20,706 nt of DNA, from the IMG/VR virus record IMGVR_UViG_3300020395_000135, positions 1-20,706 of that record; one strand, written 5' to 3'. The position numbers and the translations under genes were made by a program. The notes beneath the pieces were generated by a model, which made no database searches, was not told the origin of the DNA, and saw only the letters and a program-made list of their open reading frames with translations. Below are positions 1,375 to 19,104 of the stretch, piece after piece; the stretch's first letter is position 1, and every line of letters starts with the position of its first letter. Source of the stretch: a virus.

Positions 1375-2970
1375 TTAAAATTCCAGAATAATTTTAATGT
1401 CTTCTTTTTGTCTAAGATTTCTAGTAATCTCTTCTCTATTATCAATATAAAGAATATCACCAGTTGTTTTATTTATCTCAGGTTCAGCAAGACCTCCTGT
1501 GAAATAAACTCCTAAATCAATCTGATTACTTCCAGATGTAACAGTACGTCCTGAAAAGTCACTGTCAAATGTTGTTGTATCTGGTGTTCCAGCGTCAAAC
1601 ACAATACCTTTATCAGCAGAAGATACAAATGGTATTACCTTTGCCTCACTAGTTACTCCAACATAATCCGTTTGATTACCAGTAGTTTGATTATAATATA
1701 AAGATCTATCTTGATAATATTTTAAAACACTTGTTGTTTTATCATATGATGCTATATAACCTTTAGCAAAAGTTCCATCTCCTTGGTCTTGTGATATTTT
1801 AGTTCCAACAGTAGGTACATCTACTCCCCATCCTGAAAGATTAGAGGGATTAAATTTTATAGCATATAACGAAGAATAATCAGATCCACTATAGAGACTA
1901 TCTAAAGAACTAAATGTTGAAGGATTCTTTACAATACCAACTTGTGCAAATTTAGTATCAAGAGGAAAATCTTTTGTAGAATCATCAAATCTCGCATATA
2001 TTAAAACTCTGTCTGCTCCCAGATCTTTATAGATATCATAACCATGACCTCTGGAAGGTGGTATAATGACTATTAATTCAGCTGGAGTTGATGAAGATAT
2101 TGCTTGACTACTACCAATTCCACCCAAATCAACCATACCATAAGTATATCCACTTCCACCAGCAGTTACAGTAACATCAGTAATTACTCCTCCAGTAGTT
2201 GTAACTGCTACTTTACCACCAGTACCATCACCTAATATATCACATATAATAGTTTTATCTGCATCATAATAATTGCCACCATTTTTAATATATACAGTTT
2301 TTATTTGATTAAAATTAACTGCAGAATCTGCTGCTTCTCTAACACTTTGAATAACAGAATTTGTAGATGTAGCCCAATCATTAGGAACTACAATATATTC
2401 TGTAGAATCAAATTTTATAATATCATTGGGAGATATTGTATACAAATATTTCCATATGTAACCATCACTAGTAGATCCAGCAGCACTTGGTTCTAAATCT
2501 GTAAAAGTTGGTTCAAATTTAGACTTTGGAATTTCAGAAGTACTTCCAGATGATCCATTTTCTATACAAATATAAACATTATAATCACTATTAACAACAA
2601 AATAATTTGCATCATATAATCTTGCAGTATCTGATACTGGTGCTTTATTGTTAATACTATAATCCTGCCTATACATATCATAAGCAGTATTACTTTTCCA
2701 TTCTACTTTCCTTACGACCCTTCTAACATTCGCACTATTAACTTTTTTCCCAAAAAGTGAGGTACTCCCATAATTCCATTCATGGTTTAAATTATCAATT
2801 GGATTTGGAGGTGTGGTATTCCATGTAGTTGTTCTACCAAATCCTGGATTTGGAGTAGTCGGATTACTAAGACCCAAAAATACATAATAATTATTATTGG
2901 TATCTAGTACAGAATCTACAAAATTACCAGCATTAGATATTCTAAATTGATCTGTTACTACGGCTGACAT
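1375..2970 (-). CDS. 8: Baseplate wedge subunit gp8, enlarged
   Basis: A 531-residue protein, against 334 for T4 gp8. It keeps blocks that I match from memory to T4 gp8: a VTDQFR-type N-terminus, DGYIWKYLY at 169-177 followed by TEYIVVP to 196, FAQVGIVKNP at 341-350 (T4 FRQISIITNP), and a C-terminus GDILYIDNREEI...IKIILEF (T4 GEMIYMENRPPI...INILFTF). In T4, gp8 is a dimer in each wedge, bound to gp7 and gp10. The extra length falls in two places: residues about 200-340, which hold two GG-x-Y beta motifs also seen in the giant neighbour, and about 355-500. The gene follows the giant by 31 nt and has its own late promoter. The DUF4815 gene starts 6 nt after its stop. Confidence 0.9.
   Translation of the reverse strand: MSAVVTDQFRISNAGNFVDSVLDTNNNYYVFLGLSNPTTPNPGFGRTTTWNTTPPNPIDNLNHEWNYGSTSLFGKKVNSANVRRVVRKVEWKSNTAYDMYRQDYSINNKAPVSDTARLYDANYFVVNSDYNVYICIENGSSGSTSEIPKSKFEPTFTDLEPSAAGSTSDGYIWKYLYTISPNDIIKFDSTEYIVVPNDWATSTNSVIQSVREAADSAVNFNQIKTVYIKNGGNYYDADKTIICDILGDGTGGKVAVTTTGGVITDVTVTAGGSGYTYGMVDLGGIGSSQAISSSTPAELIVIIPPSRGHGYDIYKDLGADRVLIYARFDDSTKDFPLDTKFAQVGIVKNPSTFSSLDSLYSGSDYSSLYAIKFNPSNLSGWGVDVPTVGTKISQDQGDGTFAKGYIASYDKTTSVLKYYQDRSLYYNQTTGNQTDYVGVTSEAKVIPFVSSADKGIVFDAGTPDTTTFDSDFSGRTVTSGSNQIDLGVYFTGGLAEPEINKTTGDILYIDNREEITRNLRQKEDIKIILEF
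2116..2304 (-). other. GG-x-Y motif insert in gp8
   Basis: Residues about 223-285 of gp8 contain TVYIKNGGNYY and, after a Gly/Thr-rich stretch, VITDVTVTAGGSGYTYG. This is the pattern 'xIxxVxVxxGGxGYxxxP' found many times in the neighbouring giant protein. The stretch lies between two blocks that are close together in T4 gp8 (EYIVVP and FxQxxIxxNP), so it looks like a module added to the gp8 fold. Its function is not known to me; it is most likely a beta-rich surface loop. Confidence 0.6.
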
Positions 2971-2987
2971 ATTAATTAGTTTTTAGG

Positions 2988-2995
2988 TATTTATA
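2988..2995 (-). promoter_or_regulatory. T4-type late promoter for gp8
   Basis: The plus strand reads TATTTATA, so the minus strand reads TATAAATA, the exact T4 late promoter element recognised by the gp55 sigma factor with the sliding clamp. It lies in the only intergenic gap of this operon (31 nt), 17 nt ahead of the gp8 ATG. The expected start of transcription would leave a leader of only about 11 nt. The promoter gives gp8 and the DUF4815 gene expression independent of readthrough from the 13-kb gene upstream. Confidence 0.85.
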
Positions 2996-3001
2996 ATAGT
3001 A

Positions 3002-6000
3002 TTATGAATAGAATGGATCTAGAGCTCCTGTGTCTCTATAACCAACTCCACGTCTCTGAATTGTTGGAAAAGTGGTTAATCCAGAATTAATAGTTTTTCC
3101 AGTTACGGCAATTGCTATAGGATTACTATTTCTAGTAGCTCCATCCAATATACCTAAAGAAAATCTTCCAACAGCAACGCTAGAACTACCTGTGGAAGTA
3201 ATTCCAACCAATACAGAATCATCAATTACATTACATGTAATAAGTCCTACATTACCACTACTCCAAGGTGCATAGGAAATATTATATACATTATCTAGGA
3301 ATGTTGTTCCAATACCAACAACTGCAGTATTGGAATCGTAAATAGATGTCACTCCATTTCCAACTTGAGTATTTGAAATATAAATTGGATAATTAATAGC
3401 CAAATCAGAATACTTATAATTATCAACAGGATCTTTATATAAATGGAATTCTAAAGCTAAAGCAGTTCCATTTCCAGTGGTAGTATTAATACCAGTAACA
3501 ATTCCAGAAATACCTGTTGCAACTCCAATATTAGTAATAATCTCACTATTAACTAGTGGTGATAATACTAATACTTGTGGAGGAGTCGTTAATGTATAAC
3601 CTAAACCTGGATTGGTTATAAGAGTTGAAGTAATAGTTCCATTGGAATCTATAGTCGAAGTTGCAAGTGCAGTTGTACCAATACCTATTATATTACCCTC
3701 ACTATCTTTATCCAATATTCCAGTTGTTGGTATACCTATAGCAATAGATGGAGCAACAGTATAACCAATACCACCACTGACAATATCGAGTGATGAAATA
3801 GTACCATCAGCACTTACTATAGCAGTTAAGGAAGCACCAACGGGAGTAATATTATTATCAACAATAATTGCACTAAGTTTATTAGCATTTATATCATATT
3901 CTTCATTAAAGAATAATGCTTCATCAACAAAAAACTTTGTGGTTGTATCAGATATTTTACCAATTACCTTAGCAGTTGGGAATATCATTGGTTCTAAACT
4001 AGCTCTAGATTTAAAAATCTTTTCACCATTTATTATTTTATCAACTTTTTGCTTTGTCCAATTAAGTGTTTTTTGATTGTTATTAATACCCACACCCCTA
4101 TAAAGATTAGTTTCTATACTCTTGGATGTAATAATATCTTGTACTGTTCTGGTATTTTGATCAATATCACTAGATTGAATTGCATCTAATTGAACAATAT
4201 CTCCAGTTTTTACTGAAGGTTGTATATTTTCCACTAAACTACTATCACTACCTACACTTCCACGATAGAAAAATATTACAACATTATCTTCTGGTTTTGG
4301 TGCTACAGTAAATGTAAATGAGGTTCCACCAGTAAATGTATATGCACTGCCAGGTTCCTGAATAATTCCATTAATTAAAATAAATAATGTATTTGTTAAA
4401 TTAATACGTGGAAAATCAGAATTTGGATCAGTCTCAAAACTTAAAATTTGACCATCATATTTCAATTGAAATCTTCTTCTAACTCCATCTTGTTGATCTT
4501 TGATAGAATCAATATAATCCATTTGACCAAATTGCCATGCTGCAAATGAATCACTAAAAGTATCTAAAACAGTTAATTCAAACTCAGCCTGTGGAGATGC
4601 TACACGAGAATCTGTAACTAAACCAACAGGTTTAAATACATCACCTTTTTTAAATGCATATCCATTTCTAGCAATTTCCCACTTGGTAACTCCAAAGAAA
4701 CTACTAATTCCTGTAAATGATGTTTTACCAACATTAATCGTAAATGAGTTAGTTCCAGTTTTAGTAATTGCAGTTGTTACACCAGCAATTGGATCAGTTG
4801 CTCTTGGGTAAGTATGTTCTGTAAAATTTTCATCTGCATCACAAGTAAATATTAATGAATTATTTACAAGTCTAATAGTATTATCAGTTATTAATCCATG
4901 AGCACTTCCAAATGATAATTCAAGTACTCCAGTAGATGCATTATATGTTGCTCCACTTGGTTGTATAGCGGATAAAGATGGACTAATTCTCTCTACTGCA
5001 CCTGAGTCTGCTGAAACAAATGTATGTTTCATAGAGTCTATTGGTAATCCACCTACTTCAATATCCAAAAGTAGACCAACTCCAGTATTAGTTGTTTCAC
5101 CTTCACCCAATCTTGATACACCCACTACTCCCAAACCTCCGTAGGATGCCTCTGGAATAACCAATTGTGGATTATTATAGTTTGTACCAGCAGTAGTTGT
5201 TTCAAATGCTAGAGTTCCACCAGCACCTACTGTAGCGGCAACCACAGCACTAGAACCAACACTACTACCAACATCCACTGAGAATGATAATGTATCAATT
5301 ACGGTAATTGCTAAATCAGTATCATAAGCAGGATCAGTAGATCTTGGATATGAATGATATGATTGATTATCATCTTTATCGCAAGTAAATGTCAATCCAT
5401 TTGTAGCAATTTTTATGTTACCACCAGATAATCCATGAGCACTAGTAAATGATAATACTAAAATACCTGTAACAGCATTATATACTGCGTTACTAGGTGT
5501 TAAGGTAGTTCCTCCTTGTGTAATACTGTCAGTAACAGCACTCACAAACTTATGTGCATATGGAATATCTGTTACTGCAACAGAAACATTTGTTCCATAA
5601 TACCCAGATCCATATGTAGCATCCCCATACCAAGGCATAACATCTCCACCACCCACATATGTGTGAGGAATAGTACTTGTTCCAACATTAGTAGTAAATC
5701 TATTCTGTGTTTGTGACTGACCAACATTAACAGTAAATGTATGTTGAGTAACACTGGTTATAGTTGTAGAACCACCTCCAACTGCAACAGGATCTTTTCC
5801 AGGACGAGGATAAGTATGTTCTGTATTATAATTATCTCTAGAGCATGTAAATGTCAAAGAATTATCTGTAATAGCAATAGATTGATTAAGATTAAAACTA
5901 TGATAATTCTTAGTAAATGTTAACTCACCAGTAGCAGCATTATAATCAGCACCTGTTGGTTGTATACCACCCACAGCAGTTGCTGTAGCACTTATAAACT

Positions 6001-9000
6001 TATGATCATAATACCCAGGAGAAGTATTTAATATTGAATATTCTAAACTTGTAGAACCCAACCCAACATTATTATTAGATGGGAAAAATGTGGTAGTAAT
6101 TCCATAACTTCCAGAACACTTAAATTCAAGTCTATGTAATTTTACTTGTTGTCCAATACCAGATTCAAAATTATGCTGATTTTCAGTAATAACTTCTAAG
6201 AATCCAGTTGTATTATCATAAAATGCTGTCGTTACACCATTAGAAGGTCCAGTTGTAGCAAAACCAACGACCTTTGTAATTCCACCACTAGCATTCTTTT
6301 CTAAATATACTTTTGCTCCTTCAGCAAGTGCATATCCTTTACCTGGAGTAGATGCTAAAGAAACAATAACCCCACCTATAGGTAATTGATTCTGATTAAC
6401 ATCAGAATCGTTAATTATTAGATCATCTGATTGTGTTGATGTAATTCCTGTAAAAGTAACAGTACTTACACCAGCATTAATATCTTCCGAAATAGCATAA
6501 TTATTTCTAGGATTATTTTCTGTTGTAGGTCTTTGGAATATATTACCAATTAATATTAATCCATTTCCTCCAGTAGAACCTAAACCAACAGTATTTGCTC
6601 CTCCAACTTGTAATGTAAATGTCTGACCTATACCAGTAAATTGATCTGAAATATCATCATATATTTGGTTTGTAGAATAATCATTCCTCAAAAATACTCT
6701 GCCATTAAAATCAGAAGTAGGATAATTTAAATTACTTGAATTTTTGATTAATTGTGGGTTTCCTCTAGGAGCATCTGTAAAATGTATTTCTTCTCCAACA
6801 ATATTATACGAACCCTTATATACTTGAACATTTGATGAATTTGTATGGTTAGTTGCAGAAGTTCCTACAAACCCTCTCTTAACTTCAACAAGAGTTGTGG
6901 TTCCTATCCCAGTTATTGGTCCAATACTTGTATTTCCAAATCCAACATTAATAACTTTCATATATTCATCATCAACTTTTAATATATCACCACCAATTAC
7001 AGAAGAAATACCACTTAAAGAAATAATATCTCTTGTAGTACTAATTCCTGTATTAGCATCATCAATATTATCTTTTAATGTATGGTTTATTGGTGTAAAT
7101 GCTAATGGAGATTGAATTAAATTATTAATATTAATAATAGCTTTTGTATTACTCTTACTCATTTCAAATTGATGTAGATTTCCTGTACCAACACCTACAA
7201 AAGTAACAGCTGTTCCTGCTCTTGTTGTTGCTATTTGGAAACTATCACTAGTATTTCTAATCGCAAAGACATTTGTTGGTAATTGACCAATACCTCCATC
7301 AGCACCTTTATATTGCATTGGTGTAGATCCTACACCAACAAAAGTTGATTTGGGAGTATAAATTAATTCTTCATTAGTTCTAAAGAAATGATCTTTAATA
7401 GTAAATACACCAGTACTTAAATTAACAATAGAAGAATCAATAGGATTAAAAGATTTAGCAAAAATTGGTGTTTGATTAGAAGTTAATCTAAAATTCTTTC
7501 TCCGAATTCTCTCACCCTCTAATCCATCATAAGCATATATCTTTGGAGAATTAATAACCCCACCATAAATCAAATCTACTATATTGGGGGTATTAATAGT
7601 ATCAGTATCAATGTAAAATACTTTATTGAAAGATGAGACTTGAATAGTATCATCTAAAAACTCTTCATCTGGATGGAAATTTAAAATAAAATCAGTGCTA
7701 TCAGTAGTTCCACTAAACGTACCAATTCCACCATATTCACTATATGTACCGTATCCATCAGAAGATAAAATAGGTCCTTGTTGAACATAAACATTAGTAC
7801 CATCATATAGAGAAGTAACTTGATGAAGTGCTTTTGTAGATCCAATACTAACTTCAACAACAGACATAAAAGTATTAAATAAAATCTTACTTCCACTATA
7901 AACAACGGTGGTTCCTATTCCAGTATTATAATTGGAAGCATATATTAAACTTCTTTCAGATCCTGCTGGTTGATTATCAACTAAAAATCTATATGTACCT
8001 GTTCCAGCAGTAGTTGTACCAAAACCAACTATGTTAGATTTAACTTCGATTTCATCATCTGAGGTATTTTCAAACAAAAGAGAAAATTGTGTATCAGTAA
8101 GATCTCCCTTAAATGTACCAATCAATTGACCAGAATAAGAATCTCTTTGGGAATGGGTATCTATAAAAGATTCTGTTAAATAAGTATCTGTTGAATCATG
8201 TGTAACATAATGCTCTACATAATTCATCTCATTTGTAGTTCTATTAATTAATTGAGTTTTAGCATAGAAAGATTCATATTTATTTGAATCTACACCAATA
8301 ATAGTTGTTGTGGTTATTCCTAAATCAGAATCTACAGTAGAAATACCAATTGAAGATGTAAGAGAAGTAAATCCAACAGATTGGGTACCAATACCAGTAT
8401 TACCAATAAAATCAGTCTCAATGGTTTTAAGATCATAATCAATATCGGGATTATATGGAATAAATCTCAAATAATCTTCCCCAAATTCCGTTTCGACCAA
8501 ATCAAAATATCCAATTTCACCTATACCACTGAATGTAGTTAATCCAGTTGTAGTATCTAACTCATCTTTTTGTAATAGAACTGATGTAGTTCCATTATTC
8601 AACAAAACTAACTGAGATGATTGAATCTTGTTATTAACTAAGTCAGAAATTCTAATGGATAATTCTTTACATGAAATATTAGAATCTACTCTTATAAAAT
8701 CTAATGATAAACTAGGATCTCCATCTACGTTTGTAAATTGATTCTTAATATTATCAATTAATAATACCTGATTACTTTTAGATAAAGTATATGGTGTTAA
8801 TTTCTTACTATAAAATTCTATAGAATTTGATTTATTATCATCACCCAAATCAAAAGCAAAATCAAAATTATTAATTGTATCTACTCTTAAATCTCTAATA
8901 AAATCTTGTATTCTAAGTAATGCAGAACTACTACCTATACTGACATTAGATTCGGACTTAATACCAACATCTGCAAAATTCTTCATTCCGCTAGTGTGAA

Positions 9001-12000
9001 GTAAAGAATTAACAGGACTTCTTAATTCATCAAAAGTCTTAGAACTTTGAATAGCATATGAAAGATTTTGATAATAATTATTATCAGGTGTTACCTGAGT
9101 ATCGAAATTTAATTCTCCTACATTATTAGACCATCCAATATTTTTTTCAATCATGTAGTTAACAGAATATCTACCAAAATTCTCATCAATATTATCAATT
9201 CTAGCTTTAACTCCAGAACTTTTTCCAATGATTTCCTCACCAACAGATAACCTATAAGTTCCTGATACTTTAATATTCGTCTTTTCACTATGTGTAATAA
9301 CTAAATCTCTTTCAATACCATTGGAAATTAATTTTTCACCAATTAAAAACAATGATGTTTCTAAGGAAATAGTAAATATGGGATATTTGGATTTATTTAC
9401 AAGAATTGATTCAAGATTTTGGTCAGTAACTGCTATACCAGTATTAGTTACTATACCACTCACATCAATAGTTACTGAATCATTAGAACCAGCAGCCGCT
9501 ACAGTATACTGAGTAACTACACCAAACTTATATCCTAAGTCTGAAGAATTGAATCCAGATCCTGCAATACCTACTTTAGTAATTCCTTCAATATAAACCT
9601 CATCATCGACTTTAAATGGAAGTATTGTAAAATCACTTACAGGTGTTTGTATATAACATGTAAAAATTCCAGTAGAATTAGAACTAATAGTACTAATTGC
9701 AACCCCATTACTATTGTCTGTGGCAAATAATTCTATTCCAGTATCGGGTAATCCATATGGGGTAACAGTTTGAACAATATTAGAAATTGTACTTCCATTC
9801 ATCTCAGCTTCAAGGATACCATTATCAATAACAGTTCTACTTACAGAATCAATAATTTTTATAATTGGTGGTGTAATATAATCAGACCCACCTGAAGTTA
9901 AAGTAACTATTCCAATTTGATTGGAATTTTTAATATTAATAAAAGGAGAAATATATGCAAATGGTTTTAAAGTTTTATCAGATGAATATTCAAAACCTTC
10001 ATTAATTATTCTAACTTGTAAAGGATTACCAATAGCACTTGATTTTGGTAAAATGGTAAGATTAACACCTTCAGTAGAAGAAGTTCCAACAAGAGTTGGT
10101 AATTTTTCATAATTTTGACCTTTGTCTAAAAGGGTTACCTTATCAACACTTCCCTTTTCAGTTAAAGACTTAGTAGTATAATTTAAAGTAGAGCATTCGG
10201 ATTGATTGTATGATAATTTTTCGGGTATTTCTGTTAATAAAATATCAAATGTAGTATCACCAACACTAACAATATTATATGAAGAATTGTAATTACTTTG
10301 AGTAAAATCTATTTCAGAATAATCTGTAACGCTTGTATCTGCTGTATTGATAAAACCAGATTTTTCTAAATTATAATATAATTTTGTTGGTAATGATGTA
10401 TTATGATTAATTGTAACTGAAGCATCACCACTTACCCCAATAATACCAGTATTAACTACATTAAATATTGTAGATGATGTAGAAACAAACTCATTTTTAA
10501 ATTCTTTATCATAATAAATTTTAAATTTATAATCTGCTAATGAAGAATGTGATAAATCAAAAACTAAACTATTAGTAGTTATAACTTTAAGTGGAGGATT
10601 TATTAATCTAATTGATTGATCTATTCCTCCTGTAGATCCTATACTAATAGTAGTTGGTGGATGACTTTCAATATCAACCAATGTTTCACATAATTTTATT
10701 ATATTATCATTAACTTTATAGACATAATATGATGATGCAGAAATTCCTTCCGGGAATAAATCTGCAGAATATGCAATTTTATCTCCTGTATTTAATTCAT
10801 GAGAAATTGTTCCAAAAGATATTTCATTTTTATCTGTATTAATTCCTGTGGAACTAAATCCAATAGGATTAATTAACATATAATTTGTACCTTCTTGCTT
10901 CTCTATTACAACAGAACTTGAAGTTCCAATACCAACTGATAAATTTGGTTTTACATTTAATGTAACATTATCACCTTTAACTAAACTATGTGAAGTAGAT
11001 ACAGAAACTGTTGCAACATTTTTTTGTATATTTCCCAATAATTGGTCATAATTACTACTCAATCTGAATACATCTACATCATCACCACCACTAACAAAAT
11101 AGACATCAGAATATCCAATACCAACTCCGGTTTTTATTCCAATAGTATTTTTACTTGTATTAGAAACAAATAATGTAGATGGTAAATTAATATTACCGTT
11201 AGCAGGGTTAGATGGATCCTCATTGTATTTAATATCATTTGGATCATTATTTAATAATGATATTTGTTGATTTTCAATAAATGGATGATTTTGAATATAA
11301 ATTCTTTGAGTAGGAACATTAACCGTAATATCTTTATTATTAAAATCAAATGTCATAGTGGACGAAATACCACTAATAGTTCCAAATCCTATGGATTCTT
11401 TTGGATTGAAATAAACTATATCATTTACTGAAGAATCAAAATAGTCTATTTTTTTATCAATAGTAAATGAGTCTGGTAAAAATGATAATATAGATGTTGA
11501 AGTATGAGCAACACCTGTGGATCCTCTTTCAACTTTTAATATATTATTATCTCTATATACACCTAACAATCTTAATGTTTCATTTCCTATTTTTAAACTA
11601 CTTCCAATAGAAATATTAGTTGGAATTTTAGAAACTGTTATTTCAGTACCCACCCCTACTGTTGAAGACTCTAAAGAACCAATTAAAATTGATGAAAATG
11701 TAGTTACTCCAATTTTATGTGAACCATTTAACTCTGTAAGATGAGTAGTAAATCCTGAAATTGTGATATTATCACCATTTTTAAAATTATGATGCGGCAA
11801 AATAGTAATTTTTATACCTTCATTACCATTCCAACTAAATATTGAATTTTCAAAAGAATTTAAAGATGTAGTAATATCTACAATATCCTTACCTTTTAAT
11901 GAAGATACTTTACTTACTAATCCACTTCCATTAGTGTTTATATTATCAAATTTTAACGAATCATTAATTTTATAGTTATCACCACCTGAAATAATCGAAA

Positions 12001-15000
12001 TTTGATCAATTTTTCCCTTTGTTATCGTTTCTACAACAGATTTTTGCCTTGTTATTTCATTGGTTTCAATTATAAAGTCATTATCTGTATTTTTATCAGA
12101 AAGTCTATAAGGAAATGTATTTCTAATTAAATTTTTATCCGAAAAATCAAAGGATTGATCAATATCTTGCTCCAATACTAATGATCTATAAGAATCCCCA
12201 ACAAAATAAGGAAATTCTGGTTTAGAAGTCGAATCTATGGTTGCATAATATGCATAAATTCCATTAGGAAACTCTTTAGTTTTACTAAATCTCCCATTAT
12301 TTCTATCCAAATTACCAGAATTGGTAAATTTATAATCTTCAACAAAAAATCCTAGCGGAAAATCATCAGTTGATGGTCTGTCAACCACATTAGATGCATT
12401 TTTTGTATATCCAGAAACCATTCTAGATGGTGTTAATGCTATTTCAGGGTTTGCGTACCCATAAGGACCATAAATTGGATTACCATCATAAGCCCATCCA
12501 ATAATGTTAGATATTTCAGTCTCATTTTCATCAAAAGCATTCTGAATATTTTGATTATATCCACAAATATTATATTTTAAACCATCAAAACCATCTAATA
12601 ATACTTCACTACCATACTTTTCATGCATATTAACAGTTAATGATCTAACACGACCCCTTAAAAGGGCATTTTTTCCTTTAGAAACAACATTTATTGATGT
12701 GTCTATAGAAGAATAACCAATACCAGCATTAATAATTTTAACATCAGTTATTTTATTGTTTGTAATAACAGGTCTTAAGACAGCTCCACTTCCTTTACCA
12801 CTAGAATCTATCACATTTATATCTGGAATTGAGTAATATTCACTACCACCAAATTGTAAATTAACTGAATCTATCTTACCATCAACAATAAGTGGTTTTA
12901 ATTGTCCATCTTTACCATTTTTTATTGAAATTATAGGACTTTTTTCAAAATTTACTATAGATGATCCATAACCTGTTCCAGATTCATACAAATACGAGTC
13001 AATAATACTTCCTTTTACTGTTGTAGTAAGATTCATCGTTTCAATAACTTGCGTATCAGTTGATAATCCTGCAGGAACATAATTTAAAGTCACATTTATA
13101 TTAGGATATGCAAAATTTTGATATCCAGTTCCAGTAGACTCGAAATTTACATAATTTTTTCTTATATAATTAGAAGTTATTGTTCCTGCAATACCAATAT
13201 CACATAATTTGAAGGAATTTTCATCAATTTTAGAAATTTTATATTGATTTGCTGTAGTTGTTATTCCAGTAGAAGTAGTTAATCCAGATATTTTAGTTCC
13301 AGTAGTAGTATATTCAATTATTTCACCATCATTAAATCCATGATTATCAAATGTAACTGTATTATAATTAGTTGAAATTCCACTTGGTTTAACAATTATT
13401 TTTCTATTAGTAAATTCTCCACCATCAATGATATTAATACCACTAACAGAAGTTTGATTAGGTAAAGTTATAAATTCATGAATACCTGAGAAAATAGCTG
13501 TAGAAACTACGGTAGTGGCATGAGTACCAAGACCTATAGTGTTAATTCCTACAATAGCATTATTTTCTGAGTTATATAATTTAATACTCTTATTATTAGA
13601 TACACCCGCATAATATATGGCATTATTAATTAACATTCCCGGAGTACTTCCAATACCAATTCCTTGATTTTTATTAGAAGATTTATATATTATTGTTTGA
13701 CCATTTTGGAATCCATGATTTTCTGTAAATGTAACTTCATCTGTAATTGTATTAATACCACCTACATTTGAATCTGAAGTACGCCTTCCATCAAAAATTA
13801 ATGATCTAGATTTTTGAATGGTTACTGCTTCTAAAGAAGCGGCACCATTTCCACCACTGACATTAACCGATATAACTTTATTAACATCGAATTGTTGTTC
13901 ATCTACCTCAACTTTTGTAATGGTACCACTAAGAACGGGTTGAATTAATGCAGTTATACCTATACCACTAGAAATTCCTATTAAAGGTGGATTAATAACA
14001 TCATAGTCACTTCCTCCATTTAAAATATCAATAGAACTTAGAGAACCATAATAAATTTTATCTAATGTCTTATAATTGCTAATCTCTACACCATTTTTTA
14101 ATAGTCCAACAGACCCTGTAGTTGTTTTCTCTTGAACACCCCTATTAACAGTAGATTCTAAAGAGAATTTTTTAAATATTTTTTGAGGAGAAACTACAGC
14201 AGATTTTTGTGACAATAGAATAAATTTATGAATATCTGTCTCAGTTGATTGTGCTAGATTACCAAATTGTAAATAATTGGCATCTCCTATAAAACTTCTA
14301 GAATTATATAATCGTAATTGTTTCTTTTTATTTTCCTCATCAAGTATGACATTTACATAATAATTACCAGTAGCTAAACCAACATAATTTTCGTAAGGCG
14401 AAATAGGTTGATAAAAAACTTCATCACCATCAATAAAATCAAATTCATTAGGAAATTTAATTAAACCATATTTACCTGTAATTACATTTTTATCATCCAA
14501 ACTAGCAGCAGTTGCAACTTGAATATTAGATGTTATATTATTTCTATCATTATTACTATTACCAGAATCTGTAGATTGAGAAGGTAATGAATTAGAAGCT
14601 ACATATGCAACTTTATCATCCCCAATATATAAATTCTGAACATCTGATATAACATTATCATACTTTAAAGAAACTATTGTACTTTTTGGATGAGAAACTT
14701 TTCTTCTAATATCATATTCAACACCTGATTGAGGTATTAAAGTAGCATTATTAAAATCAAGTTGATTATTAGTAGGATCAAAAGTTGTTATAATTATATC
14801 ATTTGAAAGACCATCCTTAATATTATTTGTTCCTCTTTCTAATATTTCAATTTTATCACCCCTTTTAAGACTAGAATCATATATTTTTTCAAATAAAATA
14901 GCTTTAGTTACAGTAGATGCAGATCCTACATCACCAATTGATTTTGGTTTAAATCTTACTGATGTATTATATACCCAAGAATTAGCAAAAATCTCTTTAT

Positions 15001-16360
15001 ATGACATATCACTATATGATACATCTTCACTATTAGAAATATTTTTCTTTTCTTCTATAATATCACCTATACCGTTTACAGAAATTATCTGATCTTTATC
15101 TACATTAAGATTTTTTGATATTTGTTCAAAATTAGATAATACACCAGTTAATCTTATTTTAACTGGTTTGGTTAAATCAGCATTCTCATAAGAAACATAG
15201 ATGTCATCATTACGAACAGTTTCTGTAGAAGTAATTAGGTCATCAATACCTGTACATCCAAAAAACTGATTAATGGATTTACTTGTATAGTTAATATTAG
15301 TATTATTACCAGCAACTAATGTTCCAGTATTTCCAAAACCTATTGTTGAGTCAACAGATATTATAGAAGATCCTATAGAAACATTTTCTAAACATTTAGA
15401 AGCAGGAGTAATTTTAAATTTTCCTTGTATGGTAGATGCTGATTTATCATAACCCATAAAGAGAGAAATTTTCCAATACTGTTTATTTTCAGCAAAACCT
15501 ACACCACTTCTAGTAAAAGGTTCAACTTCAGAAATAGATGCATTAGTATCTAAATCATTTTCTTTAAATATTGTTTGACCAACTAATTGTGAAGGATCTC
15601 CAGAAATGGCATCTCCAATTATAACTTCTCTTCTAATATATTCTGCAGAAGATGGTTTAAGTAAATAATCCTCTAAATTTACAACTTTAGGAGTTTCACC
15701 ATAAAGTACATTAAATAATATCCTAAAAGATTCATCAGTACCTTTTGCTTCATATAATGATCTTGATTCCTTTATAAAATTACCTATATTTACATCAGGG
15801 GCAAAATCTACACCAACCAAGTCTGGTGTTAATGTGTATTTTTGCTTTTCATAAAATTGCTTTAAAAATAAAGAACTTAAATTTTGAATATTAGAATTTG
15901 CACTATGACTTGCCGCAGTAGTATTATTAAAGACTAATTCCTCTTGATTTAATTCTTTATGATAACTTGTAATTCCACAAAATCCTCTAACACACCCAAC
16001 AAATTTATTTTTTTCCGCATTTAATGAAGTATATGTAATAATTTCATCATCAATTTTCAATAATCCATACTCATTAGGAAATCCTTTAGTACTACTAACA
16101 TTTATTACAGTATCCCCTATGGTAGTAATACCAGTGGTTGTGGCACTATCAACAACCACTTCAGGTGTAAGATTATCTAATTTCAAATATTCTGATAAAT
16201 TATCAGAAATATCAACAGGCCCTCCTTGATATTCTTGAGAAATATAATATTGCTTTAAAAAATCTATCGTAGTGGGGCTTTCACTCCGCACAAAATCTGG
16301 TAGTTGATTATCAATTATTTGCTGAATCTTGACTTTAGATTCAAAACCAGTCTGTATCAT
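3002..16360 (-). CDS. Giant gp7-like baseplate wedge / arm protein (4452 aa)
   Basis: One uninterrupted frame of 4452 residues begins 4 nt after gp6 and ends at TAA 31 nt before gp8, the slot of gene 7 in T4 (1032 aa). Residues about 20-322 resemble the C-terminal core of T4 gp7: NFIKESR at 194-200 then EAKGTDESFRILFNVLYGE to 222 (T4 RFFESRSYDF...YKFLFKVLYNE), and LVGQTIF at 259-265 (T4 LVGQTIY). The rest is a Ser/Thr/Gly/Asn-rich mosaic of repeated beta modules: at least four STxGFP...DDE...RGF-type units, about eight HGFxxGD-type units, about a dozen GGxGYxxxP motifs, a YHYH-like domain near 1272-1394, and three related ~105-residue units at 3448-3883. Near residues 3948-4041 comes a GIIQEPGSAYTFTGGTSF...FFYRGS segment that I know from other phage structural proteins, and the last ~350 residues hold two more GGxGY units. 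No signal peptide, membrane segment or catalytic motif is evident. The gp7 reading comes from synteny plus recalled sequence. Similar giant genes in cyanophages have been annotated simply as structural or YHYH-domain proteins. Confidence 0.85.
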   Translation of the reverse strand: MIQTGFESKVKIQQIIDNQLPDFVRSESPTTIDFLKQYYISQEYQGGPVDISDNLSEYLKLDNLTPEVVVDSATTTGITTIGDTVINVSSTKGFPNEYGLLKIDDEIITYTSLNAEKNKFVGCVRGFCGITSYHKELNQEELVFNNTTAASHSANSNIQNLSSLFLKQFYEKQKYTLTPDLVGVDFAPDVNIGNFIKESRSLYEAKGTDESFRILFNVLYGETPKVVNLEDYLLKPSSAEYIRREVIIGDAISGDPSQLVGQTIFKENDLDTNASISEVEPFTRSGVGFAENKQYWKISLFMGYDKSASTIQGKFKITPASKCLENVSIGSSIISVDSTIGFGNTGTLVAGNNTNINYTSKSINQFFGCTGIDDLITSTETVRNDDIYVSYENADLTKPVKIRLTGVLSNFEQISKNLNVDKDQIISVNGIGDIIEEKKNISNSEDVSYSDMSYKEIFANSWVYNTSVRFKPKSIGDVGSASTVTKAILFEKIYDSSLKRGDKIEILERGTNNIKDGLSNDIIITTFDPTNNQLDFNNATLIPQSGVEYDIRRKVSHPKSTIVSLKYDNVISDVQNLYIGDDKVAYVASNSLPSQSTDSGNSNNDRNNITSNIQVATAASLDDKNVITGKYGLIKFPNEFDFIDGDEVFYQPISPYENYVGLATGNYYVNVILDEENKKKQLRLYNSRSFIGDANYLQFGNLAQSTETDIHKFILLSQKSAVVSPQKIFKKFSLESTVNRGVQEKTTTGSVGLLKNGVEISNYKTLDKIYYGSLSSIDILNGGSDYDVINPPLIGISSGIGITALIQPVLSGTITKVEVDEQQFDVNKVISVNVSGGNGAASLEAVTIQKSRSLIFDGRRTSDSNVGGINTITDEVTFTENHGFQNGQTIIYKSSNKNQGIGIGSTPGMLINNAIYYAGVSNNKSIKLYNSENNAIVGINTIGLGTHATTVVSTAIFSGIHEFITLPNQTSVSGINIIDGGEFTNRKIIVKPSGISTNYNTVTFDNHGFNDGEIIEYTTTGTKISGLTTSTGITTTANQYKISKIDENSFKLCDIGIAGTITSNYIRKNYVNFESTGTGYQNFAYPNINVTLNYVPAGLSTDTQVIETMNLTTTVKGSIIDSYLYESGTGYGSSIVNFEKSPIISIKNGKDGQLKPLIVDGKIDSVNLQFGGSEYYSIPDINVIDSSGKGSGAVLRPVITNNKITDVKIINAGIGYSSIDTSINVVSKGKNALLRGRVRSLTVNMHEKYGSEVLLDGFDGLKYNICGYNQNIQNAFDENETEISNIIGWAYDGNPIYGPYGYANPEIALTPSRMVSGYTKNASNVVDRPSTDDFPLGFFVEDYKFTNSGNLDRNNGRFSKTKEFPNGIYAYYATIDSTSKPEFPYFVGDSYRSLVLEQDIDQSFDFSDKNLIRNTFPYRLSDKNTDNDFIIETNEITRQKSVVETITKGKIDQISIISGGDNYKINDSLKFDNINTNGSGLVSKVSSLKGKDIVDITTSLNSFENSIFSWNGNEGIKITILPHHNFKNGDNITISGFTTHLTELNGSHKIGVTTFSSILIGSLESSTVGVGTEITVSKIPTNISIGSSLKIGNETLRLLGVYRDNNILKVERGSTGVAHTSTSILSFLPDSFTIDKKIDYFDSSVNDIVYFNPKESIGFGTISGISSTMTFDFNNKDITVNVPTQRIYIQNHPFIENQQISLLNNDPNDIKYNEDPSNPANGNINLPSTLFVSNTSKNTIGIKTGVGIGYSDVYFVSGGDDVDVFRLSSNYDQLLGNIQKNVATVSVSTSHSLVKGDNVTLNVKPNLSVGIGTSSSVVIEKQEGTNYMLINPIGFSSTGINTDKNEISFGTISHELNTGDKIAYSADLFPEGISASSYYVYKVNDNIIKLCETLVDIESHPPTTISIGSTGGIDQSIRLINPPLKVITTNSLVFDLSHSSLADYKFKIYYDKEFKNEFVSTSSTIFNVVNTGIIGVSGDASVTINHNTSLPTKLYYNLEKSGFINTADTSVTDYSEIDFTQSNYNSSYNIVSVGDTTFDILLTEIPEKLSYNQSECSTLNYTTKSLTEKGSVDKVTLLDKGQNYEKLPTLVGTSSTEGVNLTILPKSSAIGNPLQVRIINEGFEYSSDKTLKPFAYISPFINIKNSNQIGIVTLTSGGSDYITPPIIKIIDSVSRTVIDNGILEAEMNGSTISNIVQTVTPYGLPDTGIELFATDNSNGVAISTISSNSTGIFTCYIQTPVSDFTILPFKVDDEVYIEGITKVGIAGSGFNSSDLGYKFGVVTQYTVAAAGSNDSVTIDVSGIVTNTGIAVTDQNLESILVNKSKYPIFTISLETSLFLIGEKLISNGIERDLVITHSEKTNIKVSGTYRLSVGEEIIGKSSGVKARIDNIDENFGRYSVNYMIEKNIGWSNNVGELNFDTQVTPDNNYYQNLSYAIQSSKTFDELRSPVNSLLHTSGMKNFADVGIKSESNVSIGSSSALLRIQDFIRDLRVDTINNFDFAFDLGDDNKSNSIEFYSKKLTPYTLSKSNQVLLIDNIKNQFTNVDGDPSLSLDFIRVDSNISCKELSIRISDLVNNKIQSSQLVLLNNGTTSVLLQKDELDTTTGLTTFSGIGEIGYFDLVETEFGEDYLRFIPYNPDIDYDLKTIETDFIGNTGIGTQSVGFTSLTSSIGISTVDSDLGITTTTIIGVDSNKYESFYAKTQLINRTTNEMNYVEHYVTHDSTDTYLTESFIDTHSQRDSYSGQLIGTFKGDLTDTQFSLLFENTSDDEIEVKSNIVGFGTTTAGTGTYRFLVDNQPAGSERSLIYASNYNTGIGTTVVYSGSKILFNTFMSVVEVSIGSTKALHQVTSLYDGTNVYVQQGPILSSDGYGTYSEYGGIGTFSGTTDSTDFILNFHPDEEFLDDTIQVSSFNKVFYIDTDTINTPNIVDLIYGGVINSPKIYAYDGLEGERIRRKNFRLTSNQTPIFAKSFNPIDSSIVNLSTGVFTIKDHFFRTNEELIYTPKSTFVGVGSTPMQYKGADGGIGQLPTNVFAIRNTSDSFQIATTRAGTAVTFVGVGTGNLHQFEMSKSNTKAIININNLIQSPLAFTPINHTLKDNIDDANTGISTTRDIISLSGISSVIGGDILKVDDEYMKVINVGFGNTSIGPITGIGTTTLVEVKRGFVGTSATNHTNSSNVQVYKGSYNIVGEEIHFTDAPRGNPQLIKNSSNLNYPTSDFNGRVFLRNDYSTNQIYDDISDQFTGIGQTFTLQVGGANTVGLGSTGGNGLILIGNIFQRPTTENNPRNNYAISEDINAGVSTVTFTGITSTQSDDLIINDSDVNQNQLPIGGVIVSLASTPGKGYALAEGAKVYLEKNASGGITKVVGFATTGPSNGVTTAFYDNTTGFLEVITENQHNFESGIGQQVKLHRLEFKCSGSYGITTTFFPSNNNVGLGSTSLEYSILNTSPGYYDHKFISATATAVGGIQPTGADYNAATGELTFTKNYHSFNLNQSIAITDNSLTFTCSRDNYNTEHTYPRPGKDPVAVGGGSTTITSVTQHTFTVNVGQSQTQNRFTTNVGTSTIPHTYVGGGDVMPWYGDATYGSGYYGTNVSVAVTDIPYAHKFVSAVTDSITQGGTTLTPSNAVYNAVTGILVLSFTSAHGLSGGNIKIATNGLTFTCDKDDNQSYHSYPRSTDPAYDTDLAITVIDTLSFSVDVGSSVGSSAVVAATVGAGGTLAFETTTAGTNYNNPQLVIPEASYGGLGVVGVSRLGEGETTNTGVGLLLDIEVGGLPIDSMKHTFVSADSGAVERISPSLSAIQPSGATYNASTGVLELSFGSAHGLITDNTIRLVNNSLIFTCDADENFTEHTYPRATDPIAGVTTAITKTGTNSFTINVGKTSFTGISSFFGVTKWEIARNGYAFKKGDVFKPVGLVTDSRVASPQAEFELTVLDTFSDSFAAWQFGQMDYIDSIKDQQDGVRRRFQLKYDGQILSFETDPNSDFPRINLTNTLFILINGIIQEPGSAYTFTGGTSFTFTVAPKPEDNVVIFFYRGSVGSDSSLVENIQPSVKTGDIVQLDAIQSSDIDQNTRTVQDIITSKSIETNLYRGVGINNNQKTLNWTKQKVDKIINGEKIFKSRASLEPMIFPTAKVIGKISDTTTKFFVDEALFFNEEYDINANKLSAIIVDNNITPVGASLTAIVSADGTISSLDIVSGGIGYTVAPSIAIGIPTTGILDKDSEGNIIGIGTTALATSTIDSNGTITSTLITNPGLGYTLTTPPQVLVLSPLVNSEIITNIGVATGISGIVTGINTTTGNGTALALEFHLYKDPVDNYKYSDLAINYPIYISNTQVGNGVTSIYDSNTAVVGIGTTFLDNVYNISYAPWSSGNVGLITCNVIDDSVLVGITSTGSSSVAVGRFSLGILDGATRNSNPIAIAVTGKTINSGLTTFPTIQRRGVGYRDTGALDPFYS
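4712..5035 (-). repeat. ~105-aa protein repeat, copy C
   Basis: Residues about 3776-3883 of the giant: KHTFVSAD..., GATYNASTGVLELSF, GSAHGL, NSLIFTCDADENFTEHTYPR, then NSFTINVGKTSF. It is closest to B in the first half and to A in the 'TEHTYPR' half. The unit probably folds as a small beta domain; I do not recognise a named family. Confidence 0.8.
5236..5557 (-). repeat. ~105-aa protein repeat, copy B
   Basis: Residues about 3602-3709 of the giant: AHKFVSAV..., NAVYNAVTGILVLSF, TSAHGL, NGLTFTCDKDDNQSYHSYPR, then LSFSVDVGSS. It shares the skeleton of copies A and C. It is separated from A by about 45 residues and from C by about 65 residues of non-repeated sequence. Confidence 0.8.
5700..6018 (-). 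repeat. ~105-aa protein repeat, copy A
   Basis: Residues about 3448-3554 of the giant. The pattern is H-K-F-I-S-A..., GADYNAATGELTF, an 'H-x-F/G-L' turn, NSLTFTCSRDNYNTEHTYPR, then HTFTVNVG. It is the first of three related units in protein order. It differs most from the other two in the middle (KNYHSFNLNQ instead of SAHGL). The likeness is at protein level; the DNA has diverged. Confidence 0.8.
12180..12545 (-). other. YHYH-like domain inside the giant
   Basis: Residues about 1272-1394. The segment reads IGWAYDGNPIYGPYGY, later GRFSKTKEFPNGIYAYYATID and then PEFPYFVGDSYRS. The DGNPIYGP element and the 'NG-x-Y-x-Y-x-x-T' element, in this order and spacing, match the YHYH domain (Pfam) as I know it. 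Where the family name motif would read YHYH, this copy reads YAYY, so both histidines are missing. No function can be assigned beyond a structural or binding module. Confidence 0.7.
15395..16303 (-). other. gp7-core-like N-terminal region of the giant
   Basis: Residues about 20-322. The order of matches to the gp7 C-terminal region is preserved: an aromatic helix block (DFLKQYYISQEYQGG near 33-47; T4 AFCEAYIQYL), then the ESRS...KGTDESFRILFNVLYGE block at 198-222, then DYLLKPSSAEY, LVGQTIF at 259-265 and a YWKISLF strand near 296-301. In T4 this part of gp7 forms the core bundle with the gp6 dimer, which suits its place directly after gp6. A separate STxGFP-type module (about 83-135) interrupts it. 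The T4 sequence was compared from memory, so the alignment should be treated as strong but unverified. Confidence 0.7.
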
Positions 16361-16364
16361 ATTA

Positions 16365-18317
16365 CTATCTTATTAATTGTCCGTTTGAATAACTAGATGT
16401 ATAGAAATCTTTAATAAAGGTGGTTCCGGTTATTTCATCACCAGAACTAATAACATCTCTTACCATATTTATTTTACTTTTTGAGAGGCTTAAATTGAGA
16501 TATAATTCTTTTAATCCAACTACATCATTAGATTCTGGAATTGCCTGTATTTCAATTATTTCAGAATCATTAAGAGTTGAAGTAATATTTACTGTATTTA
16601 ATAAAATTTCACCTTTAATATAATCCACAGTTCCTGCTGATTTAGCAACAACAAAAATAGTCCCATCATTCGATAATTCTACAATAGAAATACTTCCTGT
16701 CTTCAAATCTGTATTTGGAAGATCTGTAATATATACCGTTTTAGAACTTGTAGAAATTTTAAATCCAGTAGATTTGATATTATATCCTTTAGGATTTACA
16801 TGGAATTGATTGCCAAAACATAGTTCATATTGAGCAAATTGATTAAGTGCTGCTTTTAAATCTCTTCTTATTATCACTTTAGTAATATTGGAAGTAATAG
16901 CAGTAGAAGTATTGTCAATAACTTGTTGAACTTTACTGTACTTAAATCTTCCTCCAAATTTATTCATATCTATTGAATCTGCATATGTGGTAAGTGAATT
17001 GGTTACTTGTGCTTTGAGAGATTCTGCATTTGAAATTTTAGTATTATCATAATATACAGCAGTATTAAGTTCAATATATAACATCTTCAAATCTGTTATT
17101 TTTTGATTAATCCCTGATACTGAATATTGCTTCAATTTTGATAAAATAAGAGATTTATTAAAATCCGAAACAAATGAACCATTCTTAGGTTTTATACTAA
17201 TATAAACATTTCCAAATTCTGGTGGATCCATTTCTTCACCACCTACAACAGCCACAGATTCTGTATCTGGATATATCTTCTGAACTATTGCCTCATAATC
17301 TCTTGGAGTAACAGCACGATATTGGGATGAATAAATTCTTGGTGCATAATATTTAATTGAACTGACTTCTTCAATATCAGCTCCATTTCTAGAATTTTCA
17401 TTAGTGGTTAGTGATGTAATTGATGCATTTAAATTAATCGCATTTCCTGTTAGAGGGTTACTGTATGTAAGTTTTCCTGCAAAAGAAAATGTACTATTTT
17501 CAGTAGTTCCACCTATACCATTTCCATCTATACCATCAGTAGTAATATATTGAACGGTAATTACATCACCATTTTGTAATTTTCTACCAATTTTACCATC
17601 ACCAAATAATAATTCATATTTTTCGTCTTGTACTTCTTGTATTAAATATATTTCTGAAAATGAATCTACATTTAAAATATTTTCTACTAATGAATATTCA
17701 CTTCCTAATGATCCAAGATCATCATCAACTCCATCTTCAGGTGTCGCATCTCTATGATAATTGACATATACTTTAATAGTGGAAGTATCAATACCAGAAT
17801 TATCTAATAAGAATCTTTGATCTAAAGAAGCATTAACAGTAAATTTCTTTGTTAAAAATATACCTTGTTTTATTTTTACATTATTAAAAGTTGCTACCCC
17901 ATTTGATATAGGTGCAGATATATTTTCTGTAGTAGAAAATACATAAGAAGTATCTGAAGCATTACCAACGCATACTATACCCGTTTCTAACGTTGCTATA
18001 GTATGACTAGTATCAATTGTAGCATTAAACGATATGTCTGCTGTGGCTGCCGTTCTAGAGCGTGGTACATATCCTATGTTACGTGCCAAGGAAACTACAT
18101 TTTCACGTAATGTTGCAGAATCTAAAAAAGATTCATTCACCACCATATTGGAGTTAAATGCTGTGATATAGGTATTATATGCTAAAGTATCAATTAAAAC
18201 GGAAAAGTTAGACCCTTCAAAGTCAAATCCAGTGAAATCAGAATTTGCACGTAGATAATCTTTAATTGAAGTTTTTATTTGATCAAAATCAAGATTTGTG
18301 AATTTAGTAAACGGCAT
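16365..18317 (-). CDS. 6: Baseplate wedge subunit gp6
   Basis: A 650-residue protein, near the 660 of T4 gp6, with clear similarity from the first residues: DYLRANSDFTGFDFEGSNFS, LIDTLAYNTY, ESFLDSATLRENVVSLAR and NIGYVPRSRTAA match the T4 NGQNEFLDYDFEGS...LLAYNT...ESFMRTANLRSSVVQ...NGYLPTSKSAA as I recall it. A baseplate-J-like stretch starts near residue 334 (RAVTPRDYEAIVQKIYPD). gp6 dimers form the continuous ring that holds the baseplate together and switch shape when the sheath contracts. The start codon is 1 nt past the gp25 stop and the stop is 4 nt before the giant's ATG, so all three are one transcription unit. This placement supports a gp6-gp7 type complex with the giant's N-terminus. 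Confidence 0.97.
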   Translation of the reverse strand: MPFTKFTNLDFDQIKTSIKDYLRANSDFTGFDFEGSNFSVLIDTLAYNTYITAFNSNMVVNESFLDSATLRENVVSLARNIGYVPRSRTAATADISFNATIDTSHTIATLETGIVCVGNASDTSYVFSTTENISAPISNGVATFNNVKIKQGIFLTKKFTVNASLDQRFLLDNSGIDTSTIKVYVNYHRDATPEDGVDDDLGSLGSEYSLVENILNVDSFSEIYLIQEVQDEKYELLFGDGKIGRKLQNGDVITVQYITTDGIDGNGIGGTTENSTFSFAGKLTYSNPLTGNAINLNASITSLTTNENSRNGADIEEVSSIKYYAPRIYSSQYRAVTPRDYEAIVQKIYPDTESVAVVGGEEMDPPEFGNVYISIKPKNGSFVSDFNKSLILSKLKQYSVSGINQKITDLKMLYIELNTAVYYDNTKISNAESLKAQVTNSLTTYADSIDMNKFGGRFKYSKVQQVIDNTSTAITSNITKVIIRRDLKAALNQFAQYELCFGNQFHVNPKGYNIKSTGFKISTSSKTVYITDLPNTDLKTGSISIVELSNDGTIFVVAKSAGTVDYIKGEILLNTVNITSTLNDSEIIEIQAIPESNDVVGLKELYLNLSLSKSKINMVRDVISSGDEITGTTFIKDFYTSSYSNGQLIR

Positions 18318-18318
18318 T

Positions 18319-18720
18319 TTATCTTGTTGACTCTAAAAGGAAGGAATATTCTTGTACTGGAAACTCTTGTCCTATAATATCATATACAACATCTACCTCA
18401 AATGTATTATCATCTGGTTGAGGATTAACAGAAACAGTGACATTTTCAATTCTTGGTTCAAAATTATCTAAAGATACTTCAATTTGACTTTGAATTGTTG
18501 CGGCAGTACCAAAATCAACGAACTCAAATAAACTAGCATATACATCAGAACCAAAAAGAGGATCAAAAAACTTTTCAGTTGGTATAGTTTGAACTATATT
18601 ACGTACTGATCTTTTAATCGCATTTTCATTCTTTAATATAGGTAAATCATTCGTAACAGGATGAGGTTCAAAAGATAAACTAATATCTTTAAATACCCTT
18701 GATATCCTCTTAATTGCCAT
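18319..18720 (-). CDS. 25: Baseplate wedge subunit gp25
   Basis: A 133-residue protein (T4 gp25 is 132) of the GPW/gp25 family, once described as lysozyme-like but structural in the baseplate and conserved across contractile injection systems. NAIKRSVRNIVQT at 33-45, FDPLFGSDVYASLFE at 52-66, and NFEPRIENVTVSVNP at 86-100 match T4 SIKNSLLGIITT, FDPEFGCDLSDQLFE and NYEPRIDKLAVNVIP as recalled. It is the first gene of the late operon, with the late promoter 19 nt ahead of the ATG. In T4 it nucleates sheath assembly from the inner baseplate. The leader has no convincing Shine-Dalgarno. Confidence 0.97.
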   Translation of the reverse strand: MAIKRISRVFKDISLSFEPHPVTNDLPILKNENAIKRSVRNIVQTIPTEKFFDPLFGSDVYASLFEFVDFGTAATIQSQIEVSLDNFEPRIENVTVSVNPQPDDNTFEVDVVYDIIGQEFPVQEYSFLLESTR

Positions 18721-18938: not shown

Positions 18939-19104
18939 CTTCCTCCAAATAAGTTTCAGTTTTTAATTGATCGGATGTTGGAGAACCTGTCTGATAAAAT
19001 TCAATTGCCAGATTCTCCATAATATCAAAGTATTCTAATTGACTTAAGTCATCAAATATAACTTTGCCATCTCTGTAGATTTTATATAACTCTCGTCTTT
19101 TCAT
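18931..19104 (-). CDS. Small conserved-type phage protein, 57 aa
   Basis: The product begins MKRRELYKIYRDGKVIFDDL and continues SQLEYFDIMENLAIEFYQTG, ending YLEEDG. It is acidic overall in its second half. Its ATG lies inside the end of the glycosyltransferase-like gene (23-nt overlap) and its TAA lies inside the start of the 49-aa gene (8-nt overlap), a sign of translational coupling in one transcript. The pattern Y-x-I-Y-x(6)-F-x-D-L-x(3)-E-x(3)-I also appears in the 59-aa protein at 19885-20064, so the two may be paralogues. I recall similar short proteins in marine T4-like phages, with no known function. Confidence 0.8.
   Translation of the reverse strand: MKRRELYKIYRDGKVIFDDLSQLEYFDIMENLAIEFYQTGSPTSDQLKTETYLEEDG
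18941..18946 (-). promoter_or_regulatory. Strong ribosome binding site for the 49-aa gene
   Basis: GGAGGA on the minus strand, two nt before ATG (GGAGGAAGATG). It lies inside the last codons of the 57-aa gene. It confirms the start of the 49-aa gene and contrasts with the weak or absent sites before the late genes. Confidence 0.8.

Follow-up and report, generated by a model that had tools for sequence, protein, structure and literature searches.

The periphery of the T4 baseplate consists of the N-terminal part of gp7 together with gp10, gp11, and gp12. Marine cyanobacteria have very abundant T4-like phages, whose baseplates are, to our knowledge, largely undescribed. A minimal gp7 orthologue with a solved structure is gp17 of Vibrio phage XM1, in which residues 1-48 form the core bundle and tail spikes are bound by two flexible stretches, 80-106 and 201-242 (PMC10457771). 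For cyano- and pelagimyophages, T4 gp7 has been stated to be absent, with VrlC as its substitute, in a 2020 paper (PMC7029224), and gp7 is listed among the non-cyanophage core genes by Sullivan 2010 (PMC3037559).

We analyzed a window of 20,706 bases, which is the whole of one virus record and a fragment of that virus's genome; the test for single copy was run on complete relatives. The window contains a giant gene on the minus strand (3002-16360) that reads through without an internal stop, encodes 4,452 amino acids with a computed mass of 482 kDa, and matches phrog_2885, “baseplate wedge subunit” (E = 0). In reading direction, the gene order is gp25 (18319-18720, minus strand; Pfam GPW_gp25, E = 2.8e-15), gp6 (16365-18317, minus strand; Pfam Gp6-like_1st, E = 2.4e-17; phrog_219, E = 2e-192), the giant, gp8 (1375-2970, minus strand; Pfam Phage-Gp8, E = 7.8e-13; phrog_438), and a gene in the VrlC position (1-1368, open at the window end). 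Gp8 is a wedge subunit, and gp6 is the expected partner in a (gp6)2-gp7 wedge. The Pfam and PHROG matches of these neighbors bear out the original prediction that the giant sits in the gene-7 slot between gp6 and gp8. Its placement is that of a gp7-type gene, directly behind gp6 and before gp8; gp6 lies directly upstream of gp7 in 160 of 162 gp7 loci. Ahead of gp25 and gp6 in the direction of reading lies a 251–amino acid protein (19082-19837, minus strand; phrog_1574) with weak similarity to phage glycosyltransferases.

We find that the N-terminal ~320 residues of the giant and the C-terminal core of T4 gp7 are homologous by sequence and profile comparison. When residues 1-440 were compared by BLAST with T4 gp6, gp7, gp8, and gp10, gp7 alone was singled out, with 26 of 71 positions identical (37%) between giant residues 198-265 and T4 gp7 728-787. 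A profile of 53 N-termini (A2) aligned with a profile of 18 T4-type gp7 C-termini (A4) at P = 1.5e-12 (hhalign; probability, 97.7). In a search of all PDB sequences, only two matched A2 significantly, that of T4 gp7 (E = 1.1e-5) and the gp7 of a second phage (E = 2.6e-5); the weak matches (E from 0.09) to ribosomal protein S8 and to enterotoxin chains were taken as chance. The T4 gp7 C-terminus scored 28.7 bits, against a maximum of 5.5 bits among its 2,000 shuffles. In the reverse direction, T4 gp7 630-1032 matched phrog_2885, the PHROG of the giants (E = 1.8e-6). A phmmer search of PDB with the single giant sequence returned only noise, and the window protein was unmatched by Pfam Gp7_helical, Gp7_5th, Gp7_6th, and PF23786. 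The last of these families scores above its cut-off in short gp7s, including L121 and the Ochrobactrum phage protein, and below it at block 3 (described below) of S-RIM44 (E = 4.5e-5) and QB2 (E = 0.003).

Three elements make up this N-terminal region. Core block 1 (residues 1-65; 16166-16360, minus strand; block HMM E = 7e-36) covers the putative core-bundle helices; no other bin is as conserved among close relatives (71-98% identity where a locus covers it in full). It aligns with the short gp7 of the Ochrobactrum phage, and its tie to T4 runs via such short gp7s, whose alignment to T4 gp7 begins at residue ~644. Core block 2, the KGT helices (residues 168-251, “ESRSLYEAKGTDESFRILFNVLYGE”; 15608-15859, minus strand), is detected by its block HMM and matches T4 gp7 729-758 (E = 2e-7). 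It is followed by a putative barrel resembling T4 gp7 domain V (residues 252-324, “LVGQTIF”; 15389-15607, minus strand), where the A2/A4 alignment covers T4 to ~825. The ESRS and LVGQTIF blocks that had been proposed to resemble T4 gp7 exist and align with it, at the identity and profile significance given above.

For window residues 1-330, AlphaFold gave a poor model, with a mean pLDDT of 62.8 and values under 50 in the core helices; a PDB structure search with this low-confidence model did not return gp7. The low pLDDT of the core helices may reflect a chain that needs gp6. Matches of the model to capsid, F1-ATPase, and JBD30 baseplate entries in PDB were rejected as noise or as the domain of insertion 1. 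Its matches in a viral library were led by a cyanophage wedge initiator and thus provide no independent evidence. The model of a 503-residue short homologue was of moderate quality (mean pLDDT, 59); its best two PDB matches were T4 gp7 (E = 5.5e-4) and a KP1-variant gp7 (E = 7.2e-4).

A third core block lies far downstream, at residues 2399-2479 (“DNNYYQNLSYAIQSSKTFDELRSPVNSLLHTSGMKNF”; 8924-9166, minus strand; block HMM E = 7e-32). Its pattern, DNxYYQxxSYxIxS...HPxGxKxF, corresponds to T4 gp7 about 865-902. Residues 2426-2474 match a short gp7 with 43% identity (blastp, E = 3e-9), and some 50 relatives have blastp matches at similar positions. With the block 3 profile (A5), the T4 genome yields a single place, within gp7 (E = 1.1e-4), and PDB a single match, T4 gp7 865-917 (E = 0.076). 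The direct profile-profile link to T4 is modest (hhalign; probability, 68; P = 4.7e-5), so the argument is carried by intermediate short gp7s. One of these, encoded between gp6 and gp8, is the 631-residue gp7 of Ochrobactrum phage OC, a phage assigned to the Kyanoviridae. It can be aligned both to the N-terminus of the cyanophage proteins (P = 2.2e-10) and to T4 gp7, there starting at about residue 645 (P = 4.8e-8). Its core closes with “LQDNYYYQEYSYVIKSSKTVDQYQNAVKNLVHPAGLKMFG”, the counterpart of T4 “YYVMKIKSNLPSSRWKSDVIRFVHPVGFGF”.

Every frame of every locus was searched with models of the three blocks (n1, kg, and dist). The full set of blocks is present in 98 frames, among them short gp7s of 334-1,016 residues, and their order is never violated. 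In the giant, each block is present once, in order, on one polypeptide between gp6 and gp8. The location of block 3 means that the core itself is interrupted: as judged from these alignments, the gp7 core of the giant is split by two insertions (~100 and ~2,100 residues) and then followed by a tail of ~1,970 residues. The original prediction had the core kept at the N-terminus with about 4,100 residues behind it. This has to be revised, since block 3 lies at 2399-2479 and an insertion at residues 66-167 breaks even the first part. The split core indicates that the protein grew both through insertions within the core and through lengthening at its C-terminal end. Conservation is clearly highest in block 1 and only slightly above the surroundings in block 3, so that the idea of fast-evolving arms around a fixed core is borne out only in part. 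At one locus (L026), gp7 is spread over two frames, 10001-14551 (1,517 amino acids, blocks 1 and 2) and 15288-21275 (1,996 amino acids, block 3); this broken frame may reflect a frameshift, a sequencing or assembly error, or a real split.

The gp7 core could instead be complete within the first ~330 residues, the rest being an unrelated C-terminal addition and block 3 a common baseplate motif. The N-terminal match to T4 is indeed far stronger than that of block 3, and fewer elements could suffice, as in XM1 gp17 with its 242 amino acids (PMC10457771). However, block 3 closes the core in frame in every complete short gp7 (334-1,016 amino acids), and T4 gp7 has its copy in the corresponding position, immediately after domain V. 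Furthermore, block 3 is found only once in each complete genome, within the gp7 gene every time, apart from one further weak match in S-SRM01 (E = 0.006) that lies in a stop-containing stretch. We therefore consider a core confined to the N-terminus unlikely.

Two proteins of 936 amino acids (L113 and L114) have an insertion 2 of ~718 residues and end 5 residues past block 3 (HPxG). That they stop here indicates that insertion 2 lies within the core and can be told apart from the tail, and block 3 is, on this sequence evidence, a natural end of the core. Both proteins are good small models for the looped arm proposed below.

Insertion 1 (residues 66-167; 15860-16165, minus strand) is delimited by alignments as a putative small beta domain inside the core and is missing from most short gp7s. 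In Foldseek, it matches a JBD30 baseplate chain (94 columns; probability, 1.00; E = 0.031). The domain has a second copy at residues 325-370 (15251-15388), and its pattern is STxGFPxxxGLLKIDDEIITY...CxRGF. Weaker matches occur in S-SRM01, within the frame at the VrlC position (117610-117807), and in further giant frames of S-SSM7 and QB2. This distribution of sequence matches suggests a baseplate module that can be reused.

Insertion 2 (residues about 325-2387; 9200-15388, minus strand) is defined by the gap between blocks 2 and 3. This gap spans 2,147 residues in the window giant and 1,425-2,326 in complete giants, versus 11-718 in short gp7s (11 in the smallest protein, of 334 amino acids; 68 in OC; 158-222 in many; and 387-718 in others). 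Within insertion 2, residues 1279-1378 match a YHYH domain (12227-12526, minus strand; PF14240, E = 1e-20, 75 bits against a cut-off of 25). The stretch that links blocks 2 and 3 in short gp7s (e.g., L121:8001-9509) is similar to domain I of gp18, the T4 tail sheath protein, in a profile search of PDB (E = 3e-5), and 4 of 11 members match Pfam Gp18_dom_I.

The C-terminal tail (residues 2480-4452; 3005-8923, minus strand) varies in length among relatives; complete ones have between 5 and 1,973 residues after block 3. It contains three repeats of ~100 residues (3451-3550, 3601-3700, and 3777-3881; 4718-6010, minus strand) that share 37-47% identity (E down to 3e-24), the last of which matches phrog_1276. 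Alignment coverage of the repeat region falls to 23-28% in several relatives, as expected if these have fewer copies, and repeat copy number appears, from these alignments, to differ among relatives. Overall, gp7 sizes form a continuous series of 334, 503, 537-644, 718, 830, 877, 936, 1,016, 2,650-4,454, and 6,619 amino acids.

The absence of a T4-type N-terminal part had been read as a loss. The ~630-residue N-terminal part that holds the periphery, a trait of T4 gp7 proper (the Straboviridae type), is indeed not present in the giant. Nevertheless, complete frames of the Kyanoviridae type start their core within the first ~95 residues, mostly within the first 30, and even a complete non-T4 relative of 334 amino acids starts at or near the core. 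A profile of T4 gp7 1-629 found nothing in Kyanoviridae-type gp7 frames; its best matches outside the T4 type had E values of at least 0.03 and lay in other frames. Because complete non-T4 relatives and XM1 gp17 start at or near the core, the 630 residues of T4 look like an addition. Thus, by parsimony rather than from a rooted tree, the N-terminal part of T4 gp7 is probably a gain on the T4 side, not a cyanophage loss.

Taken together, we consider it likely that the giant is the orthologue of T4 gene 7, expanded and internally interrupted, with its blocks reuniting in the wedge and insertion 2 and the tail forming arms. By analogy with T4 and XM1, the three blocks would fold back together and join two gp6 chains in the baseplate wedge. 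Insertion 2 would loop out of the core and return to it, forming one arm, with the tail as a second, giving two arms per wedge and twelve per baseplate if T4 stoichiometry holds. The arms would build the baseplate periphery and carry surface-binding domains (YHYH and the repeats); probably, the outer baseplate is made up of these arms and they touch the host surface. The spike-binding flexible stretches of XM1 gp17 provide a direct precedent for outgrowths with receptor-binding parts. More tentatively, the cyanophage-type periphery might consist mostly of two very long arms of one protein, grown from the core at fixed points, one of them a ~2,100-residue loop; we regard this as possible rather than probable. 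If true, one chain of 0.48-0.72 MDa per wedge would serve as scaffold, shell, and host-surface sensor, and a contact signal could pass directly into the core. The original estimate that six copies would add roughly 3 MDa fits the total of 2.89 MDa, of which only ~2.2 MDa exceeds the mass of six T4 gp7 chains, six copies being an assumption based on T4.

A related giant provides evidence from virions. S-SZBM1_208 (6,619 residues) adjoins gp6 and has the three blocks at 2-60, 674-755, and 3514-3583. It was detected in virions by LC-MS with 71 peptides and 13.5% coverage (PMC9146016). Thus, a giant of the gp7 family is a virion protein. It is conceivable that the core is kept for anchoring only and that a protease cuts the giant after assembly, so that the arms become separate virion proteins. 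The very large size of the protein speaks for this, as does the peptide coverage of only 13.5% in S-SZBM1; against it, the frame is open in dozens of relatives, the single broken one (L026) being a possible sequencing or assembly error. We consider such cleavage improbable.

The expanded orthologue appears to be the only gp7 of these phages. The T4 gp7 profile found one place each in S-SRM01, P-HM2, S-SSM7, QB2, and OC, all complete or near-complete records, and this was always the gene in the gp7 slot. It found no place in S-RIM44, where the A2 and A5 profiles located gp7 in the slot gene. No second gp7 was found in the complete relatives tested, and a homologue elsewhere in the genome, which the original prediction had named as evidence against it, did not emerge: each complete genome searched had at most one place, always the slot gene. 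In annotated relatives, VrlC is a separate gene behind gp8, in which gp7 profiles found no core match but only the reusable domain of insertion 1. The view that cyanophages lack gp7 and use VrlC in its place, leaving the giant as an unrelated structural protein in the slot, follows PMC7029224 and the non-cyanophage core list of PMC3037559 but is contradicted by the gp7 profile matches of the slot gene (T4 profile, A2, PDB, and A5) and by a VrlC that is separate and without the core, and we hold it to be extremely improbable.

The proposal that gp7 is not lost is therefore upheld: a gp7 match exists (P = 1.5e-12; PDB E = 1.1e-5), and the slot gene is the orthologue. The accompanying statement that gp7 is often considered absent is true of one paper (PMC7029224), but several records carry the gp7 name. 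GenBank records of relatives already say gp7 or baseplate wedge initiator, and PHROGs says “baseplate wedge subunit”; the gp7 label for the relatives is thus known, not new. The split core of the cyanophage giants is new insofar as we found no earlier text describing it, or the size series, in the literature searched, with subscription literature and preprints outside the search. S-SSM7 (GU071098.1; L002) has a second gene annotated as gp7 “baseplate wedge initiator” (67650-76655). No profile found a gp7 core block in it, and this gene, which is in the VrlC position, is probably misnamed.

Three core blocks in one giant chain likely identify the wedge-initiating protein of these phages and set boundaries for structural work (core 1-65, 168-324, and 2399-2479). 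The size series from 334 to 6,619 residues suggests how insertions at fixed points can enlarge a small scaffold protein. The usual polarity of the comparison is reversed as well, the long N-terminal part of T4 gp7 probably being the novelty.

The giant shares with T4 gp7 (1,032 amino acids; PDB 5IV5 and 5HX2) the slot between gp6 and gp8 and the block order (T4 643-689, 729-758, and 865-902). T4 gp7 differs in having ~630 residues before a continuous core, whereas the giant has none in front, adds ~100 and ~2,100 residues within the core, and ends in a ~1,970-residue tail. The direct orthologues are cyanophage giants named “baseplate wedge initiator” (phrog_2885), with the same block order as the window giant: S-SRM01 QPX48159 (3,895 amino acids), P-HM2 gp7 (4,454), S-SSM7 gp7 (3,007), and S-SZBM1_208 (6,619). 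The window giant is 60% identical to that of S-SRM01 over the N-terminal 320 amino acids. Insertion 2 and tail measure 2,158 and 529 residues in S-SSM7, 2,114 and 1,449 in S-SRM01, and 2,326 and 1,786 in P-HM2, and are longer in S-SZBM1. The short gp7 of OC (631 amino acids), its IMG/VR relatives, and Pfam PF23786 (Baseplate_wedge) have the same three blocks and the same neighbors, gp6 and gp8; in OC, however, the insertions are nearly absent (3 and 68 residues). XM1 gp17 (242 amino acids), a minimal gp7 orthologue, can be likened to the giant from its published description, with an N-terminal helix-turn-helix in the core bundle and flexible stretches outside (PMC10457771).
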